From assembly GCA_003660555.1 (NCBI GenBank), contig QMUK01000054.1, positions 1-8,323 on the forward strand: a stretch of DNA of 8,323 nt, in the 5' to 3' direction. Shown piece after piece: positions 55 to 8,323 of this stretch. The notes beneath the pieces are model-generated. The model saw only the letters and a list, made by a program, of their open reading frames with translations, had not been told where the DNA came from and did no database searches. The stretch is from Thermococci archaeon (lineage in GTDB: Archaea > Hadarchaeota > B88-G9). Position numbers and translations under genes: made by a program. Each line of letters begins with the position of its first letter. The first letter of the stretch is position 1.

Positions 55-1061
55 TAGTATCTCACCCTCGGATCTATGTAAGCACAAATTATGTCTACTA
101 AAACACTTATTGAGGCCACTAAGATTGCATAAAATACTATTGCTCCCTGTACCGCGGAGAAATCTCTGTATCCAATTCTCATTATCAAGTAGGAGCCTAT
201 CCCAGGCCAAGAGAAAGTCGTTTCCGTTAGGACTGCACCACCCATTAGCAGAGCGAATTGAAGACCCATCATCGTTATGACAGGGATTAGAGCGTTCTTC
301 AGAGCATCTTTGTAGATGACTCTCCTCTCAACTACTCCCCTAGCTCTAGAGGCTAATATGAAGTCCTTCTCTAGGACTTCCAGCATGTTCGCCCTAGTCA
401 TTCTCACTACTACTCCGGAAAGGACTAAGCCTAGAGTAAGAGAGGGCAGTATAAGATGCTCTAGTGAATCCAAGAAAGCTCTTAGATTCAGTTCCAGTAT
501 ACTGTCCACTAGATAAAGGCCTGTTATCCTTTCAGGCTCCATTAACGGACTTATTCTACCAGATATTGGGAGAACTCCTAAATATTTCCCAAATATAAGT
601 TGAAACATAAGTCCAAGCCAGAATATAGGTATAGAATATATTGCTAGCGAATATACTCTTATTGACACATCTACTGGGCTATTCCTTCTCCTAGAACTTT
701 CTACTCCTAGGAAAACTCCGAGAAGAGAGGCTATGGTCATTGAAACAATCGAGAGTTCTAAGGTAGCAGGAAATCTCTCCAGAATTTCCTCTGAGACACT
801 TCTGCCTGTTAGAATAGACTCCCCCAAATTCCCACGAATTAATCCACCTAGGTACTTGAAGTACTGTACATATATGGGATCGTTCAGTCCCAACTTCTCC
901 CTCAATTCTTCTACTTGCTCTGGCGGGGCCTTTGGACCTAAAATAGCCACAACGGGATCTCCCGGTATGACTCTGAGAATGAGGAATACTACAGACAATA
1001 GAATCAATATCATAGGGATGCTAAGTAAAACTCTGATTAGCACGTAGTCCCTCAGCTTCAT
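54..1061 (-). CDS. dppB: DppB-type peptide ABC transporter permease
   Basis: Inner-membrane permease of the peptide/opine/nickel (DppB/OppB) class. It forms the membrane pore with a DppC partner, powered by two ATPases and fed by an extracellular binding protein. At 335 residues it has the normal family length. Visible features are an N-terminal membrane segment (about 9-32), the family signature IPGDPV (32-37), the region GLNDPIYVQYFKYLGGL (58-74) and RGNLGESILTGRSV (76-89), further membrane segments near 100-120, 134-157, 203-222, 258-281 and 306-327, and the ATPase-contacting EAA loop (about 232-262, with DFILASRARG and ALIPVIT). The ATG overlaps the mtnA stop codon as ATGA, so translation is probably coupled. 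The next frame on the left looks like the DppC partner. The substrate cannot be read from the permease: oligopeptides are most common in this class, but some archaeal members carry sugars. Confidence 0.93.
   Translation of the reverse strand: MKLRDYVLIRVLLSIPMILILLSVVFLILRVIPGDPVVAILGPKAPPEQVEELREKLGLNDPIYVQYFKYLGGLIRGNLGESILTGRSVSEEILERFPATLELSIVSMTIASLLGVFLGVESSRRRNSPVDVSIRVYSLAIYSIPIFWLGLMFQLIFGKYLGVLPISGRISPLMEPERITGLYLVDSILELNLRAFLDSLEHLILPSLTLGLVLSGVVVRMTRANMLEVLEKDFILASRARGVVERRVIYKDALKNALIPVITMMGLQFALLMGGAVLTETTFSWPGIGSYLIMRIGYRDFSAVQGAIVFYAILVASISVLVDIICAYIDPRVRY
62..67 (-). promoter_or_regulatory. Ribosome binding site of the partial downstream permease gene
   Basis: On the minus strand the last codons of dppB contain GGGTGA seven bases before the ATG at 54. 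GGTGA matches the archaeal 16S rRNA 3' end (UCACC). It supports ATG-54 as a real start coupled to the end of dppB. Confidence 0.5.
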
Positions 1062-2095
1062 TTCTTGAACAGCTCCGCAATTTTCTCTTTAAATGGTTTA
1101 GTAAGTATTCCCTTCTCGGTTATGATTCCAGTTATCATTTCTCCTGGAGTGACATCGAAAGCTGGATTATATGCTCTCGATCCCCTCGGAGAAACCTCCA
1201 ATCCTAGGAACTTCTTCACTTCCTCTTCCGATCTGACCTCTATCTTGATTTGGTCTCCACTCTCTATTTCCGGATCTATTGTGCTAGTAGGGGCTGCAAC
1301 GTAGAAAGGGATATTGTGCTTCTCCGCAAGTACCGCTAGCGTGTAAGTGCCTATTTTATTGGCCACGTCTCCTTCCATGGTTATTCTGTCCGCACCCACG
1401 ATTACTAGGTCTATTTCTCCCTTGGACATTAGGTATCCTGCAGCAGAGTCCACTATGACAGTATGAGGGATCCCATCTCGGAGGAGTTCCCAAGCAGTTA
1501 ACCTAGCTCCTTGGAGTAAAGGTCTAGTTTCGTCTACGTATACGTGTATTCTCTTTCCTTCCCTCCAAGCAGCTCTTATGACCCCCAATGCAGTCCCAAA
1601 GGAATAGCAGGCTAGAGCCCCTGCGTTACAGTGCGTCAATATGTTTTGCCCGTCTTTTATTAGTTTAGCCCCGAAATAACCTATTTTCTTATTAGTTTCT
1701 TCATCTTCCTTAGCCATTTCTCTGAAAGTCTTTATAGCTACTTCTTTAAGCTCATCTAGAGTTTCGCAGCTTGATATCGATTTCATAATTTTATCTGTAG
1801 CCCAGAAGAGATTCCTGGCTGTTGGTCTGGTCTTCCTCACTCTGGAGTAAGCCTCTTTAACAGATTTCATGGCTTCCTCGAAGTCCTTAGAGTTCAGTAC
1901 GGATATGGCTATGGCTAAGACACCAGCTAGTCCTATGGCAAGTGCTCCTCTTACGGCCATTTCCTCTATGGCTCTTGCAACTTCCTCGGAGCTTCTCACC
2001 TCCAGATACTTCTCTTCTAGGGGTAAAGCTCTTTGATCTAGTATTATTCCGACGTATTCTTCATCTCTCTCAACTATTTCCAGAGTTCTTAGCAA
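1058..2095 (-). CDS. mtnA: S-methyl-5-thioribose-1-phosphate isomerase (MtnA, aIF-2B-like family)
   Basis: Cytosolic isomerase that converts 5-methylthioribose-1-phosphate to methylthioribulose-1-phosphate, the step after nucleoside phosphorolysis in methylthioadenosine recycling. The 345 residues fit MtnA rather than the shorter ribose-1,5-bisphosphate isomerases of the same superfamily. Motifs in order: VRGALAIG (48-55), TRPTARNLFWA (89-99), THCNAGALA (154-162) with the presumed catalytic Cys156, DETRPLLQGARLTAWEL (188-204), GADRI (234-238) with the presumed general acid/base Asp236, GDVANKIGTY (242-251) and YNPAFDVTP (309-317). One oddity is Leu52 where the family almost always has Pro (VRGAPAIG). 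The start is TTG at 2095, chosen because a strong AGGTGG site lies five bases upstream and the N-terminus aligns with the family. The gene overlaps the preceding acyl-CoA synthetase-like gene by 26 bases and the following dppB by 4. The divergent phosphorylase at 4284 supplies the preceding reaction. Confidence 0.93.
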   Translation of the reverse strand: MLRTLEIVERDEEYVGIILDQRALPLEEKYLEVRSSEEVARAIEEMAVRGALAIGLAGVLAIAISVLNSKDFEEAMKSVKEAYSRVRKTRPTARNLFWATDKIMKSISSCETLDELKEVAIKTFREMAKEDEETNKKIGYFGAKLIKDGQNILTHCNAGALACYSFGTALGVIRAAWREGKRIHVYVDETRPLLQGARLTAWELLRDGIPHTVIVDSAAGYLMSKGEIDLVIVGADRITMEGDVANKIGTYTLAVLAEKHNIPFYVAAPTSTIDPEIESGDQIKIEVRSEEEVKKFLGLEVSPRGSRAYNPAFDVTPGEMITGIITEKGILTKPFKEKIAELFKK

Positions 2096-3302
2096 GGAAC
2101 CACCTCAGGAAGTTCCTTATTCCGAGGCAAGCCCTAGTCATGGATTGGAAGTATATGACATCCCTCCTCGATTCGAAATTTCCTAGAAGGAGTAACACAA
2201 CTGGTTTTCCTCTTAGACAGTCTATTAGATTATCTAGGTCCTTTTGGGAAAAAGTAGTGGATTCGAACCCAACTATAACCAGTGTTAGTACATCCCCCCT
2301 AATTTCATTGAGATATCTCTTGTAGTCAGCGTCTGCTATCAAGTCACGTGGGTTCTCTCTGTCTCTTGAGAGCGGGACCCCTAGGGAGTTCAGCAAGTCG
2401 CTCGCGAGTATTCCGGGACCTCCGACATTCGTAACTATGTCTACTTCCTTCCTTCTCGGAATTGGACACATCTGGGAAACGTAGAGTACGTCGAATAATT
2501 CATCTAATGTGTCTAGAACTATGCCTTGGCTTTGTTCAATCGCACTCCTAAAGATCTTGTAGTTTCCAGCTAGAGCGGAAGTGTGGGTCTGAGCAGCCCT
2601 TGCCCCAGCTTCAGATGAACCTCCTATGAGGAAGAAAACCCTCTTCTCCCTAGCCAAGTCTTCGACCACCTGCATGAGTTCTCTTCCTCTTTTAGTGTCC
2701 TCCAAGTAGACTCCGATTTCCCTTGTGGAAGCATCTTCTCCCAGGTATTCAAGAGCATCTACCTCATCTATGTCTAGTTTGTTCCCTAACCAAATGAATT
2801 TAGAAATTCCCAGGTCTCTACTCAGAATTCTTTCCAATAGGGTTGCACCCACACCACCGCTCTGAGACACTACCGATATAGACCCTGGCTTCGGGCTAAT
2901 TTCCTCGGGGAAAGTAGTATTTAACTTGTTCTCCGTGTTTATCACACCCATAACGGAGTTAGGCCCTAGGAGTCTCACTCCCTCCTTAGAGACAATTTCC
3001 AGTACTTCCTCCTCGTATCCCTTGGCGGAAGAGAGAACTATTACTCCCTCGCAACCAGATGAGACACCTCTTTCCATCGCCTCCACTAGTTCCTCCTTGG
3101 GCAACACATAAACTTGGAGTTCTCCTCCAACTACTTCGTCTTTGCTTAGATCCGTGATGTATACTTCCCCAGAAAACATTCCTAAGTTCCTTTGAACAGA
3201 ATGAAATACTTCTGGCTTCCCTATTCCCACTTCCTCTTTGACTTCGCTATTGCCTATTAGTTCAACACTCTTCGGATTTAGTATTTCCCTCAAATCTCTC
3301 AC
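2070..3302 (-). CDS. Divergent ADP-forming acyl-CoA synthetase alpha-subunit-like protein
   Basis: Relative of the alpha subunit of NDP-forming acyl-CoA synthetase (acetyl-CoA synthetase, ADP-forming), which turns an acyl-CoA plus ADP and phosphate into the acid, CoA and ATP. Seen in order: a CoA-binding-like domain (1-125, NPKSVELIG at 9-17 and LLGPNSVMGVIN at 111-122), a succinyl-CoA-synthetase-like domain with SQSGGVG (146-152), GNKLDIDE (173-180), and EAGARAAQTHTSALAG (231-246) containing the presumed phosphohistidine His240, then TNVGGPGILASD (291-302) and NPRDLIADADYKRY (317-330). The 410 residues are clearly shorter than the usual roughly 450-470. The loss is mainly in the CoA-binding domain, where the region before YVLP is compressed, and the usual Cys of GPNC is Ser. 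No ATP-grasp beta subunit lies in the window. The GTG start overlaps the argF stop (GTGA). It may be an active enzyme with a distant partner or an altered-function paralogue; the sequence does not say which. Confidence 0.8.
   Translation of the reverse strand: MRDLREILNPKSVELIGNSEVKEEVGIGKPEVFHSVQRNLGMFSGEVYITDLSKDEVVGGELQVYVLPKEELVEAMERGVSSGCEGVIVLSSAKGYEEEVLEIVSKEGVRLLGPNSVMGVINTENKLNTTFPEEISPKPGSISVVSQSGGVGATLLERILSRDLGISKFIWLGNKLDIDEVDALEYLGEDASTREIGVYLEDTKRGRELMQVVEDLAREKRVFFLIGGSSEAGARAAQTHTSALAGNYKIFRSAIEQSQGIVLDTLDELFDVLYVSQMCPIPRRKEVDIVTNVGGPGILASDLLNSLGVPLSRDRENPRDLIADADYKRYLNEIRGDVLTLVIVGFESTTFSQKDLDNLIDCLRGKPVVLLLLGNFESRRDVIYFQSMTRACLGIRNFLRWFLAKNSGNS
2100..2106 (-). promoter_or_regulatory. 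Ribosome binding site that fixes the TTG start of mtnA
   Basis: GAGGTGG on the minus strand lies five bases before TTG-2095, within the last codons of the upstream gene. It is a near-ideal archaeal Shine-Dalgarno sequence, and it justifies the non-ATG start and the 26-base gene overlap. Confidence 0.75.
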
Positions 3303-4231
3303 TTCCCTAGGAGGAGCACTAGAAGACCTTTCTGTACGTGCAATCTATTCTCCGCTTGATCGAAGACTACTGAATTTGGCCCATCCATAACTTCGTTTGA
3401 TATTTCCTCTCCCCTGTGAGCCGGAAGACAGTGCATCACGATCACTTCCTCCTTCGCATGGGAAACTAGCTTTGAATTCACTTGATAACCGGAGAAATCC
3501 CTTAATCTCTTCTGTCTCTCTTCTTCCATCCCCATGCTTACCCATACGTCCGTATAGATCACATCTGCATTTCTAACAGCTTCTATCGGGTCATTGGTTA
3601 GATGTATTCCACTCCAAATCCTCTCAGCGCTCATTAGTACTTCTTCATTTGGCTCGTATCCTTTGGGAGTGGCCACCCATATTTCCATCTTGGACAGAGC
3701 TGATACCTCTATTAGTGAGTTGCAGACGTTGTTTCCGTCTCCGACGTAGGCCAGTTTTAGACCCTCGACGTCCCACCCTTTCTTCTCTATTATGGTGAAG
3801 AGATCGCTTATTGCTTGAACTGGATGGTGATCGTCTGAGAGACCATTTATGACAGGAACAGAGGAATTTCTAGCTAGTTCCTCTAGGAGAGAGTGCTCAT
3901 AGACTCTGGCCATTATTCCATCTAAGTACCTGCTCAGTACCTTGGCAGTGTCTCCTACCGTCTCACCTCTCCCCAGTTGAAGCTCCTGCCAACCTAGGTA
4001 AATTGCCCTTCCTCCTAGATGCTCCATGGCCACTTCGAAGGAAACTCTAGTCCTAGTGGATGGCTTCTGGAAGATCATACCTAGTATTTTCCCTTTCAGG
4101 AGATTTCTTCTCACCCCAAAAATGTGCTCAGTTTTCAGGTGCTCAGACACCTTCATTAGAGTCCACAGTTCCTCTCTGTCCAAGTCTAGTACTCTGAGGA
4201 AATCTCTCTTTCCTGTTCTGGCGAACTTCAG
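3299..4231 (-). CDS. argF: Ornithine carbamoyltransferase, probable CTG start
   Basis: Cytosolic transferase joining carbamoyl phosphate and ornithine to make citrulline in arginine synthesis; it can run in reverse in catabolism. Using the conservative TTG start at 4183 (294 residues), motifs are the carbamoyl-phosphate loop STRTR (42-46), MARVYEH (91-97), HHPVQ (119-123), GDGNNV (148-153), the OTC-specific DVWVSMG (212-218) and the ornithine loop HCLPAHRGEE (251-260). SMG and HCLP separate it from aspartate carbamoyltransferase. However, codons upstream of 4183 read KRDFLRVLD, matching the N-terminal strand of archaeal OTCs, and the only start-like codon before the in-frame stop at 4258-4256 is CTG at 4231. 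That gives 310 residues, the family length, so I place the start there with caution. It is the first gene of the minus-strand operon, and its stop overlaps the next start. The enzyme identity is very secure; the start is not. Confidence 0.9.
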   Translation of the reverse strand: MKFARTGKRDFLRVLDLDREELWTLMKVSEHLKTEHIFGVRRNLLKGKILGMIFQKPSTRTRVSFEVAMEHLGGRAIYLGWQELQLGRGETVGDTAKVLSRYLDGIMARVYEHSLLEELARNSSVPVINGLSDDHHPVQAISDLFTIIEKKGWDVEGLKLAYVGDGNNVCNSLIEVSALSKMEIWVATPKGYEPNEEVLMSAERIWSGIHLTNDPIEAVRNADVIYTDVWVSMGMEEERQKRLRDFSGYQVNSKLVSHAKEEVIVMHCLPAHRGEEISNEVMDGPNSVVFDQAENRLHVQKGLLVLLLGK

Positions 4232-4283: not shown

Positions 4284-5024
4284 TTGTTCGGAGTAATTGG
4301 AGGAACAGGCATATATCGATTGATGGACCCAGAGGAAGAGTTAAGAGTTGAAACCCCATATGGAACAGTTGAACTAGGACTAACACACATTGGGAAAACT
4401 AAGGTCTATTTACTGGCCAGGCATGGGAAGAAACACGAATTACCACCACATCTAGTGAACTACAGAGCAAATATATGGGCATTGCACTCCCTAGGTGTAG
4501 AAAGGATCCTTTCGACCTCTGCAGTTGGGTCCATGGTGCCTGAAATTAGACCGGGGGAACTAGTGTACGTGAGGGACGTCATAGATCTCACTAGTGGTAG
4601 AGAGAGGACTTTCTTCGATGAACCAGTACACGTGGATTTCACCGATCCTTTGTGCCCACAGATTAACTCGTTACTGGAGAGGGAATACAGGGGAGTGGTG
4701 TACGTCTGCACCAACGGCCCTAGGTTCGAGACTCCAGCCGAGATAAGGGCCTATACCCTACTGGGAGGAGAAGTAGTGGGAATGACTTTAGCTCCCGAGG
4801 TCTTTCTAGCCAGAGAAAAAGCCATGTGCTATTCCTCCGTTTCCATAGTCACGAATTACGCCGCTGGAATAAAAGGGAAGAAACTCACCATCGATGAAGT
4901 TTTAGAAGTCACGAGAGAGAAAGAAGAGGAGATTCGGACTCTCTTCTCAAAGCTGATATCTGAATTGAAAGGAATGAAGAGAACTTGTCCCTGTCCTAAA
5001 GCATTAGACGGGGCCACTCTCTAG
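4284..5024 (+). CDS. MTA phosphorylase-family protein with 6-oxopurine (methylthioinosine/inosine/guanosine) signature
   Basis: Purine nucleoside phosphorylase of the MtnP/PNP trimeric family, cleaving a (methylthio)nucleoside with phosphate to base and sugar-1-phosphate. Motifs: GVIGGTGIY (3-11), phosphate-binding RHG (46-48), PPHLVNYRAN (54-63), TSAVGS (78-83), GPRFET (145-150), GMT (166-168), PE (171-172) and TNYAAG (190-195). Adenine-specific MTA phosphorylases have an Asp pair here (TDYD in the human enzyme). Asn191 followed by YAAG resembles the enzymes characterised as 6-oxopurine or methylthioinosine phosphorylases. A C-terminal CPC (235-237) matches the CXC motif linked to thermal stability in Sulfolobus MTAP II. 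At 246 residues it is slightly short but complete. The TTG start is the only one giving the normal N-terminus, and the predicted leader is very short. Its product would feed MtnA, encoded in the divergent operon. Many pipelines would call it mtnP; I prefer the oxopurine reading. Its tail overlaps the NYN gene by 21 bases. Confidence 0.9.
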   Translation: MFGVIGGTGIYRLMDPEEELRVETPYGTVELGLTHIGKTKVYLLARHGKKHELPPHLVNYRANIWALHSLGVERILSTSAVGSMVPEIRPGELVYVRDVIDLTSGRERTFFDEPVHVDFTDPLCPQINSLLEREYRGVVYVCTNGPRFETPAEIRAYTLLGGEVVGMTLAPEVFLAREKAMCYSSVSIVTNYAAGIKGKKLTIDEVLEVTREKEEEIRTLFSKLISELKGMKRTCPCPKALDGATL

Positions 5025-6789: not shown

Positions 6790-6836
6790 TCAAACAGGAA
6801 AATAGAAATTTGGGGGGAGCAGGCTAGTGCCTGCTC
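6790..6836 (-). terminator. Hairpin over the S-layer gene stop codon followed by a pyrimidine-rich tract
   Basis: GAGCAGGC (6817-6824) and GCCTGCTC (6829-6836) form a perfect 8-bp stem with a four-base loop that contains most of the S-layer gene's TAG. On the minus strand it is followed by six C and then the T-rich TTTCTATTTTCCTGTTT. Archaeal termination relies mainly on the U-rich tract. The hairpin could instead protect the 3' end of a heavily expressed mRNA. No T-rich tract follows the triphosphatase gene on the plus strand, so the element appears to serve the minus strand. The remainder of the 6754-6823 gap is purine-rich on the plus strand and shows no gene. Confidence 0.5.
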
Positions 6837-8323
6837 ACTTTGGCTACGGGCGGCTTCACTAGGTCAATCACTTGTTCCCTGACTGACTGGCTCATTGTTC
6901 CTGAGAAGAACACCCATCTCACCTTGAACTTGTAGTCGCTCAGGAACTTCGCTATCTCAGCTGGAACCTCATCTGTCTTCACTGGCAGTACTACTCCCTC
7001 CTTGAGAGCTGCCACCATTGCTGCGTTGAGTGCTCCTGGATCCTCAGCGTTTATTATTGCCAGAGCCCTGTAGTGTAGCACGTCCTTCAGTTGCTTAGCC
7101 ACTAGCACTGCAGTTTCGAACACGTCCTTTCCTGCTATTTGTTCTACGTCGTAGCCCATCTGCATTAGGTCCTCAGCCACTTTGGTCTCTCCGACTATTA
7201 TCACTTTCTTGACTCCTAAGCTGCTCAGGGCCTCCTTGGTCGCTTCAGGTATCACGTCCTCTCCACCAACTCTGTCTAGGTAGAGCAGAGGCGCTTGGTA
7301 GTACTTCGCCAGAGGCATGGCTATTAGGGCTGGCACAGTCTTGTGTTCTTCGTCTTCGTATATCGGCACTGGAGCTAGGACTGCTATCTCCGATCCCTCT
7401 GGCCAGTACGTCTTGGCTACTTCTGCCGCAGTCTCGAACCTAGTGGGCCCTCCTATCCTGGAGACCTTGTAGCCCATTTCCTCTAGTTCTCTCTCTACCT
7501 TCTCTGACACAGCCACTTCTCTTCCTATTATGACGACTTCCTTGGGCTCTATCCTCTTCAACACGTCTTTTGTGGCTGAAGGTATCTCCTTCGGATCTAC
7601 TATCACTATTGGAGTCTTAGTAGCAGTTGCGTGTACTGCTATTGCTGCTATGTCCACGGCTTTGTCCGATCTGGTAACGAACACTCTTTCTGGGCTCTTG
7701 GCTAAGTAGTACTTGTCTAGTAGCCAGTCGTTTATCTCCTTAGATGCCACGAATCTGTCCGTGACTGTTTCCGCTATGTACCACTTCGGTATCACTATGT
7801 CCAAGAGCTCCTCCTCTGGCTCTATTGTCAAGGTGACCATTAGTGTGTACTTGTACTCCACTGGCGGATCTGCTAGCATGGCATCTAGTTGCTCTTGGGT
7901 TATGTCATAGCTCACCTTTATTGTCCACAGTCCTGGGTCTGGGTTCTTCTTGTCGGCGTATCTGGTGAAGTGCATTATGTGGAAGCCCTTCTGCAAGGTC
8001 ACGTAAGGTGGAGTGCCAGCTATTTCGTATCTCTGCCAGTAGCTGTTCTCCAAGTCCTCTGGAGTTAGCAATGGTCTGGATTCTTGGCTGTTGGGGAGCA
8101 TCTTCTCTGTGACCATTCCCTTGAGGTAACCTTCCTTGGTCAGCTCCATTGTGGTTCCCTTAGCCTCTGTGACTCCTATCTGGTTTCCATAGGTGAACAA
8201 CATTCCCCTGTGGGAGAACTTAGTTGCTTCTTCTAGCAGTCCTATGGGTGAGCCGAACATCACCCTCTTGCCCTTGGGGTTGTATCCCTCTATTTGCAGT
8301 CTACCCTTGCTGAAGTCCGCCAA
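6824..8323 (-). CDS. S-layer-like protein with three cell-wall-binding-type repeats (N-terminus outside window)
   Basis: C-terminal 499 or so residues of a larger, probably extracellular protein. The frame is open at the right edge; the last codon there is an internal TTG, not a credible start, and no signal peptide is visible. Residues 1-210 (counted from the edge) form a beta-rich region I do not recognise. From about 213 three repeats resembling the CW_binding_2 (N-acetylmuramoyl-L-alanine amidase/S-layer) domain follow: first, VFVTRSDKAVDIAAIAVHA with VVIIGREVAVSEKV and GGPTRFETA; second, IAVLAPVP with VIIVGETKVAEDL and IAGKDVFETA; third, a weaker one, LAIINAED with VFFSGTMSQSVREQV. Archaea lack murein, so here these are probably surface or assembly modules. 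There is no C-terminal membrane anchor. Strong preference for AAG, GAG and TAC codons suggests high expression. Another secreted repeat protein is possible. Confidence 0.75.
   Translation of the reverse strand: MADFSKGRLQIEGYNPKGKRVMFGSPIGLLEEATKFSHRGMLFTYGNQIGVTEAKGTTMELTKEGYLKGMVTEKMLPNSQESRPLLTPEDLENSYWQRYEIAGTPPYVTLQKGFHIMHFTRYADKKNPDPGLWTIKVSYDITQEQLDAMLADPPVEYKYTLMVTLTIEPEEELLDIVIPKWYIAETVTDRFVASKEINDWLLDKYYLAKSPERVFVTRSDKAVDIAAIAVHATATKTPIVIVDPKEIPSATKDVLKRIEPKEVVIIGREVAVSEKVERELEEMGYKVSRIGGPTRFETAAEVAKTYWPEGSEIAVLAPVPIYEDEEHKTVPALIAMPLAKYYQAPLLYLDRVGGEDVIPEATKEALSSLGVKKVIIVGETKVAEDLMQMGYDVEQIAGKDVFETAVLVAKQLKDVLHYRALAIINAEDPGALNAAMVAALKEGVVLPVKTDEVPAEIAKFLSDYKFKVRWVFFSGTMSQSVREQVIDLVKPPVAKVSRH

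Follow-up and report, generated by a model that had tools for sequence, protein, structure and literature searches.

One member of the MTA phosphorylase (MTAP) family, the PNP of Pyrococcus furiosus, is specific for 6-oxopurines. S-methyl-5'-thioinosine (MTI) phosphorylases that carry an Asn in the purine-binding loop (N-type) are known from Methanocaldococcus jannaschii and Pseudomonas aeruginosa; the former (MtiP) is promiscuous and accepts MTI, inosine and 5'-deoxyinosine, and the latter (PaMTIP; PA3004, PDB 3ozb), which has been discussed in a quorum-sensing context, acts downstream of an MTA deaminase (PMC6302742), the position that we propose for the protein described here. In human PNP the 6-oxopurine is held by Glu201 and Asn243 (PMC10226123), while in human MTAP the purine is contacted by T219, D220 and D222, S178 is an MTAP-conserved site residue, and V233 and V236 line the methylthio pocket (PMC5738077). 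Within the AhcY family an HxExK motif goes with a preference for S-inosylhomocysteine and HxTxE with a preference for SAH (PMC10978960). M. jannaschii and P. aeruginosa already provide precedents for the enzymes considered below and for the order in which they act; the lineage studied here has received little attention.

We analysed an 8,323 nt stretch of hadarchaeal DNA (contig QMUK01000054.1; the window), in which the following features bear on the argument.

1058..2095, minus strand: mtnA, methylthioribose-1-phosphate isomerase, the next enzyme after methylthioribose-1-phosphate (TIGR00512, 423 bits, cut-off 279)
3299..4183, minus strand: ornithine carbamoyltransferase (OTC), context, first gene of the run containing mtnA
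4284..5024, plus strand: MTAP-family nucleoside phosphorylase of the E149/N191 (predicted 6-oxopurine) type, TTG start, 246 aa
4728..4730, plus strand: E149 in GPRFET, counterpart of the purine-contacting Glu201 of human PNP; every adenine-type MTAP compared has Ser here (human S178)
4851..4868, plus strand: TNYAAG, residues 190–195 (T190-N191-Y192-A193-A194-G195), codons ACG AAT TAC GCC GCT GGA
4884..4904, plus strand: L201-T-I203-D-E-V206-L207, hydrophobic, like PaMTIP (ITMAEI)

The product of 4284..5024 is probably, on the residues discussed below, an S-methyl-5'-thioinosine phosphorylase. It is a TIGR01694-like member of the MTAP family within the PNP_UDP_1 superfamily, with a significant full-length profile match: Pfam PNP_UDP_1 (PF01048) scores 144.7 bits, and the best NCBIfam model is the MTAP model TIGR01694, with 259 bits over residues 1–226. 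Neither curated NCBIfam equivalog cut-off is reached, the MTAP score lying below 274.85 and that for the MTI phosphorylase model NF006599 (202.2 bits) below 223 bits. Among solved structures the archaeal MTAPs come first (168–171 bits) and 3ozb scores 141 bits; the closest proteins by identity include Thermococcus enzymes, at about 50 %. The sub-cut-off MTAP model and the top-ranking MTAP structures speak for a genuine, adenine-specific MTA phosphorylase whose loop Asn would be a neutral variant, a reading that the base site makes very improbable, as set out next.

The preliminary description of this DNA had placed TNYAAG at 4851–4868 of an MTAP-family protein, in the position of the TDYD of adenine-specific enzymes, and had read its Asn, said to occur also in the Pseudomonas MTI phosphorylase, as a 6-oxopurine signature. 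Codon-by-codon translation bears out the motif, which aligns unambiguously with TDYDVF/TDYDVW of the crystallised MTAPs 1v4n and 1wta, and 3ozb reads VNPAAG at the aligned site. T190, N191 and A193 correspond to T219, D220 and D222 of human MTAP, and N191 also to Asn243 of human PNP. The window protein shares family and overall architecture with 1v4n, 1wta and human MTAP but differs from them in the base site: in place of the adenine-specific triad S178/D220/D222 it has E149/N191/A193, with Glu and Asn at the E201 and N243 positions of human PNP. As judged from these alignments the signature is two-part, and stronger than TNYAAG alone since E149 is also of the PNP kind.

Residues 149, 191 and 193 read E-N-(A/G) in 113 of 133 distinct homologues and S-D-D in the remaining 20, with no mixed or intermediate state among them; the loop motif, N-x-[A/G] or D-x-D in the same proportions (113/133 and 20/133), is fully coupled to Glu or Ser at position 149. 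Because of this split without intermediates and the complete coupling to residue 149, TNYAAG is not a chance occurrence, and the second PNP-type residue together with the coupling supports the earlier reading of the Asn. We predict with high confidence that the window phosphorylase is specific for 6-oxopurines (hypoxanthine/guanine). The neutral-variant explanation would have all three positions depart from the adenine kind in a protein family where mixtures are not seen, and in a genome that, as described below, contains a matching deaminase.

The grouping does not depend on the motif itself: in a maximum-likelihood tree of 82 sequences, built with the motif columns left out, a single branch (SH-aLRT 99) separates the N-type from the D-type enzymes. 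The crystallised MTAPs lie on the D side, and PaMTIP, the window protein and its thermococcal relatives, to which P. furiosus PNP gives a parallel, lie on the N side, so that the window protein groups with PaMTIP and apart from the MTAPs, as befits EC 2.4.2.44. Its own branch is long and poorly placed inside the N side, and that of PaMTIP is likewise long. PaMTIP, although bacterial and distant in sequence, resembles the window protein in its MTAP fold family, its NxAAG loop, Glu at 149 and a hydrophobic residue at 203.

In the sugar pocket, L201, I203, V206 and L207 occupy what we take to be the positions of V231, V233, V236 and L237 of human MTAP, presumed methylthio-ribose contacts. Position 203 is Ile, Val or Met in the window protein, PaMTIP and some others; the thermococcal N-type enzymes have His there, and so do most of those from hadarchaea and Bacillota. 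A hydrophobic residue here may weakly favour a 5'-alkylthio substrate. Used as a test to tell inosine from MTI phosphorylases, His versus a hydrophobic residue at 203 was dropped, as Bacillota enzymes clustered with mtnA carry His. The position bears, to the same small extent, on the main competing explanation, namely that the protein is a general 6-oxopurine nucleoside phosphorylase for inosine/guanosine salvage, like P. furiosus PNP and as in Thermococcus, and without a genuine part in MTA breakdown: at 203 the window protein has a hydrophobic Ile, like MTAP and PaMTIP, against His in Thermococcus and many kin. The base-site residues are identical under either explanation, and the thermococcal N-type relatives, near to the window protein by identity, coexist with a separate TDYD-type MTAP and may be plain PNPs. 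The window genome differs from that system in having the N-type enzyme only.

The gene neighbourhood and the rest of the genome argue for a function in MTA breakdown. As the preliminary description had stated, mtnA lies in an operon divergent from the phosphorylase gene: it comes third in a compact run of four minus-strand genes with overlapping ends (OTC, an acyl-CoA-synthetase alpha-like gene, mtnA and an ABC permease gene), and 100 bp separate the start of OTC from that of the phosphorylase. The gene between OTC and mtnA (2070–3302, minus strand) encodes an ADP-forming acyl-CoA synthetase half, alpha-subunit-like and far under the equivalog cut-off.

The source assembly comprises 1.30 Mb in 150 contigs and is 91 % complete. 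In the tree described above, genomes of this phylum are interspersed with named Hadesarchaea assemblies, which makes the source most likely a distinct family within the Hadarchaeota. The search for a DadD-type deaminase, whose absence would have counted against a deaminase-first route, was successful: among three amidohydrolases one is strong, and its gene, cut at the edge of another contig (C17, locus L082), is followed directly by ahcY.

L082:17-2396 (G000:C17): adjacent pair, dadD-type deaminase gene then ahcY (HLEAK)

The nearest solved structure of this deaminase is TM0936, an MTA/SAH deaminase, and it keeps H55, H57, E84, H173, H200, E203, H228 and D279, presumably the metal and catalytic residues of TM0936. 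Arginines 136 and 148, which we take to bind the SAH carboxylate, are replaced (Y, E), and because they are not kept SAH is less sure as a substrate than MTA or 5'-deoxyadenosine. AhcY (L082:1182-2396) has the HLEAK form of HxExK, the motif of S-inosylhomocysteine hydrolases, and its best solved relative is 7r3a, an S-inosyl-L-homocysteine hydrolase. Much of the phylum shares this conserved dadD–ahcY pairing.

The window protein is the only PNP_UDP_1-family phosphorylase in the 91 %-complete genome, and the search for a second, TDYD-type enzyme among such proteins found none; an MTA deaminase is present and a separate MTAP absent, the genome context of an EC 2.4.2.44 enzyme. Deamination of MTA to methylthioinosine followed by its cleavage, as the preliminary description proposed, gains support from DadD, the single N-type phosphorylase and the HxExK AhcY beside the deaminase, all read from the genome sequence. 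The general PNP explanation accounts for part of this, as inosine released by an HxExK AhcY would need a phosphorylase (PMC10978960), but it leaves no MTAP-type protein found in the genome to feed MtnA. No RuBisCO was found in the genome, and therefore the archaeal AMP pathway does not account for MtnA and was ruled out as its reason. An aminopropyltransferase-family protein is a likely source of MTA, and classical adenosine deaminase (PF00962) is absent from the genome. M. jannaschii, with MtiP, DadD, SIHH and MtnA, offers by published descriptions an archaeal genome with the same set of enzyme families (PMC6302742, PMC10978960); the window organism differs in having dadD and ahcY adjacent and the phosphorylase gene divergent from the OTC–mtnA run.

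Five proteins match the phosphoribosyltransferase fold (two GfcR-like, PyrE, PurF and one PurF-like). The 91 %-complete genome yielded neither a hypoxanthine/guanine nor an adenine phosphoribosyltransferase, though the proposed route ends in hypoxanthine; such a gene may lie in the absent 9 %. The two PurF-like genes are adjacent (L188/L189; G000:C4:14896-16516), one a clear PurF and the other divergent (238 bits, cut-off 350).

The pairing of N-type phosphorylase and deaminase extends beyond this genome. Counted by family over 61 archaeal genomes, DadD-like proteins of at least 400 bits occur in 15 of 16 families with an N-type enzyme versus one of seven with the D type only (Fisher p = 0.0005). 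Some D-type-only genomes also have DadD (G007, G014, G034), for which reason its presence is not proof of a deaminase-first route; at L116 and L172 (G032) a D-type (TDYDVW) MTAP gene lies near dadD, an exception to the pairing. The AhcY motif, compared genome-wide with phosphorylase type, gave 25/31 versus 3/7 (p = 0.06, not significant). In gene neighbourhoods HxExK ahcY stands beside N-type genes and HxTxE ahcY in all three D-type loci with a neighbouring ahcY, the single non-standard motif call among the neighbours having resolved to standard on alignment. Divergent N-type phosphorylases with DNYAHG or DNYANG adjoin dadD-like genes in three archaeal families (L178, L183, L184). Four hadarchaeal loci (L123, L130, L136, L145) hold phosphorylase-superfamily genes, missed by the MTAP queries, a few kb from a more distant, second dadD paralogue (30–31 % identical).

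In the Bacillota, N-type relatives recur in same-strand clusters, for example phosphorylase–mtnA–(ahcY)–(aldolase)–dadD, with HxExK ahcY and a class II aldolase; the survey covered 72 N-type relatives from named contigs and its D-type entries are all archaeal, so that it provides supporting context, not a controlled comparison. No description of the cluster as a deaminase-first route was found in the literature searched, which largely excluded subscription papers. That N-type enzymes cluster with mtnA and dadD again argues against a general PNP, an explanation that we consider unlikely for the window protein. We suggest, as the account we hold likely, that the window phosphorylase cleaves MTI after deamination, at a 6-oxopurine site that probably admits several substrates. 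Sequence does not decide between MTI and inosine as its chief substrate.

In this pathway the DadD-type deaminase would most likely act first and turn MTA, 5'-deoxyadenosine and SAH into the corresponding inosine compounds. The window phosphorylase would then turn 5'-methylthioinosine and phosphate into hypoxanthine and the sugar 1-phosphate, probably accepting 5'-deoxyinosine and inosine as well; methylthioribose-1-phosphate would be isomerised by MtnA, whose product may in turn be split by a class II aldolase. The HxExK AhcY would take S-inosylhomocysteine and release inosine, to be used by the window phosphorylase again. We infer these activities, their order and the in vivo substrates from the residues, the gene co-occurrence and the clusters of relatives, which are observed directly.

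Overlapping with this account is the possibility, which we regard as somewhat doubtful, that the enzyme is mainly a 5'-deoxyinosine phosphorylase disposing of the radical-SAM by-product 5'-deoxyadenosine in a DHAP-shunt-like route, with MTI secondary. Homologues of DadD, MtnA and a class II aldolase are all in the genome, the Bacillota clusters contain aldolase genes, and M. jannaschii MtiP and MtnA work on both series (PMC6302742); MTI and 5'-deoxyinosine use are inseparable by sequence, and the one class II aldolase in the genome is nearest to rhamnulose-1-phosphate aldolase and lies on another contig. Taking MTI cleavage after deamination as the preferred reading, we see an even chance that the hadarchaeal lineage and the Bacillota clusters share one deaminase-first pathway, in which a single promiscuous phosphorylase would process all SAM-derived nucleosides (MTA, 5'-deoxyadenosine and SAH-derived inosine) by way of hypoxanthine only. 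Its Bacillota part would be the conserved cluster of N-type phosphorylase, mtnA, HxExK ahcY, class II aldolase and dadD, and is given the same even weight.

The warning in the preliminary description that a default annotation as MTA phosphorylase may mislead was apt: relatives with the N motif pass the NCBIfam cut-offs for both MTAP and MTI phosphorylase, with the higher score for MTAP, although the window protein itself clears neither. It follows that the higher MTAP score is likely to settle what such a protein is called, so that its deamination step goes unnoticed; profile models would call most N-type proteins MTA phosphorylase. If the proposed route is correct, standard models would annotate the Bacillota cluster piecemeal, as MTA phosphorylase and adenosylhomocysteinase, and these clusters put the whole route within reach of experiment in culturable organisms such as Desulfovirgula or Moorella. 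The two-residue rule (E149 and N191 versus Ser and Asp), obeyed by 133 of 133 homologues, offers an easy way to correct the annotation; together with an AhcY motif that agrees with it and the overlap of the standard profile cut-offs in the MTAP/MTI family, it is what the present analysis usefully adds. Elsewhere in the window, the gene at 6824–8323 (minus strand) encodes a protein with three repeats of the cell-wall-binding domain CWB2 (PF04122), which is familiar above all from surface proteins of clostridia and here occurs in an archaeon.
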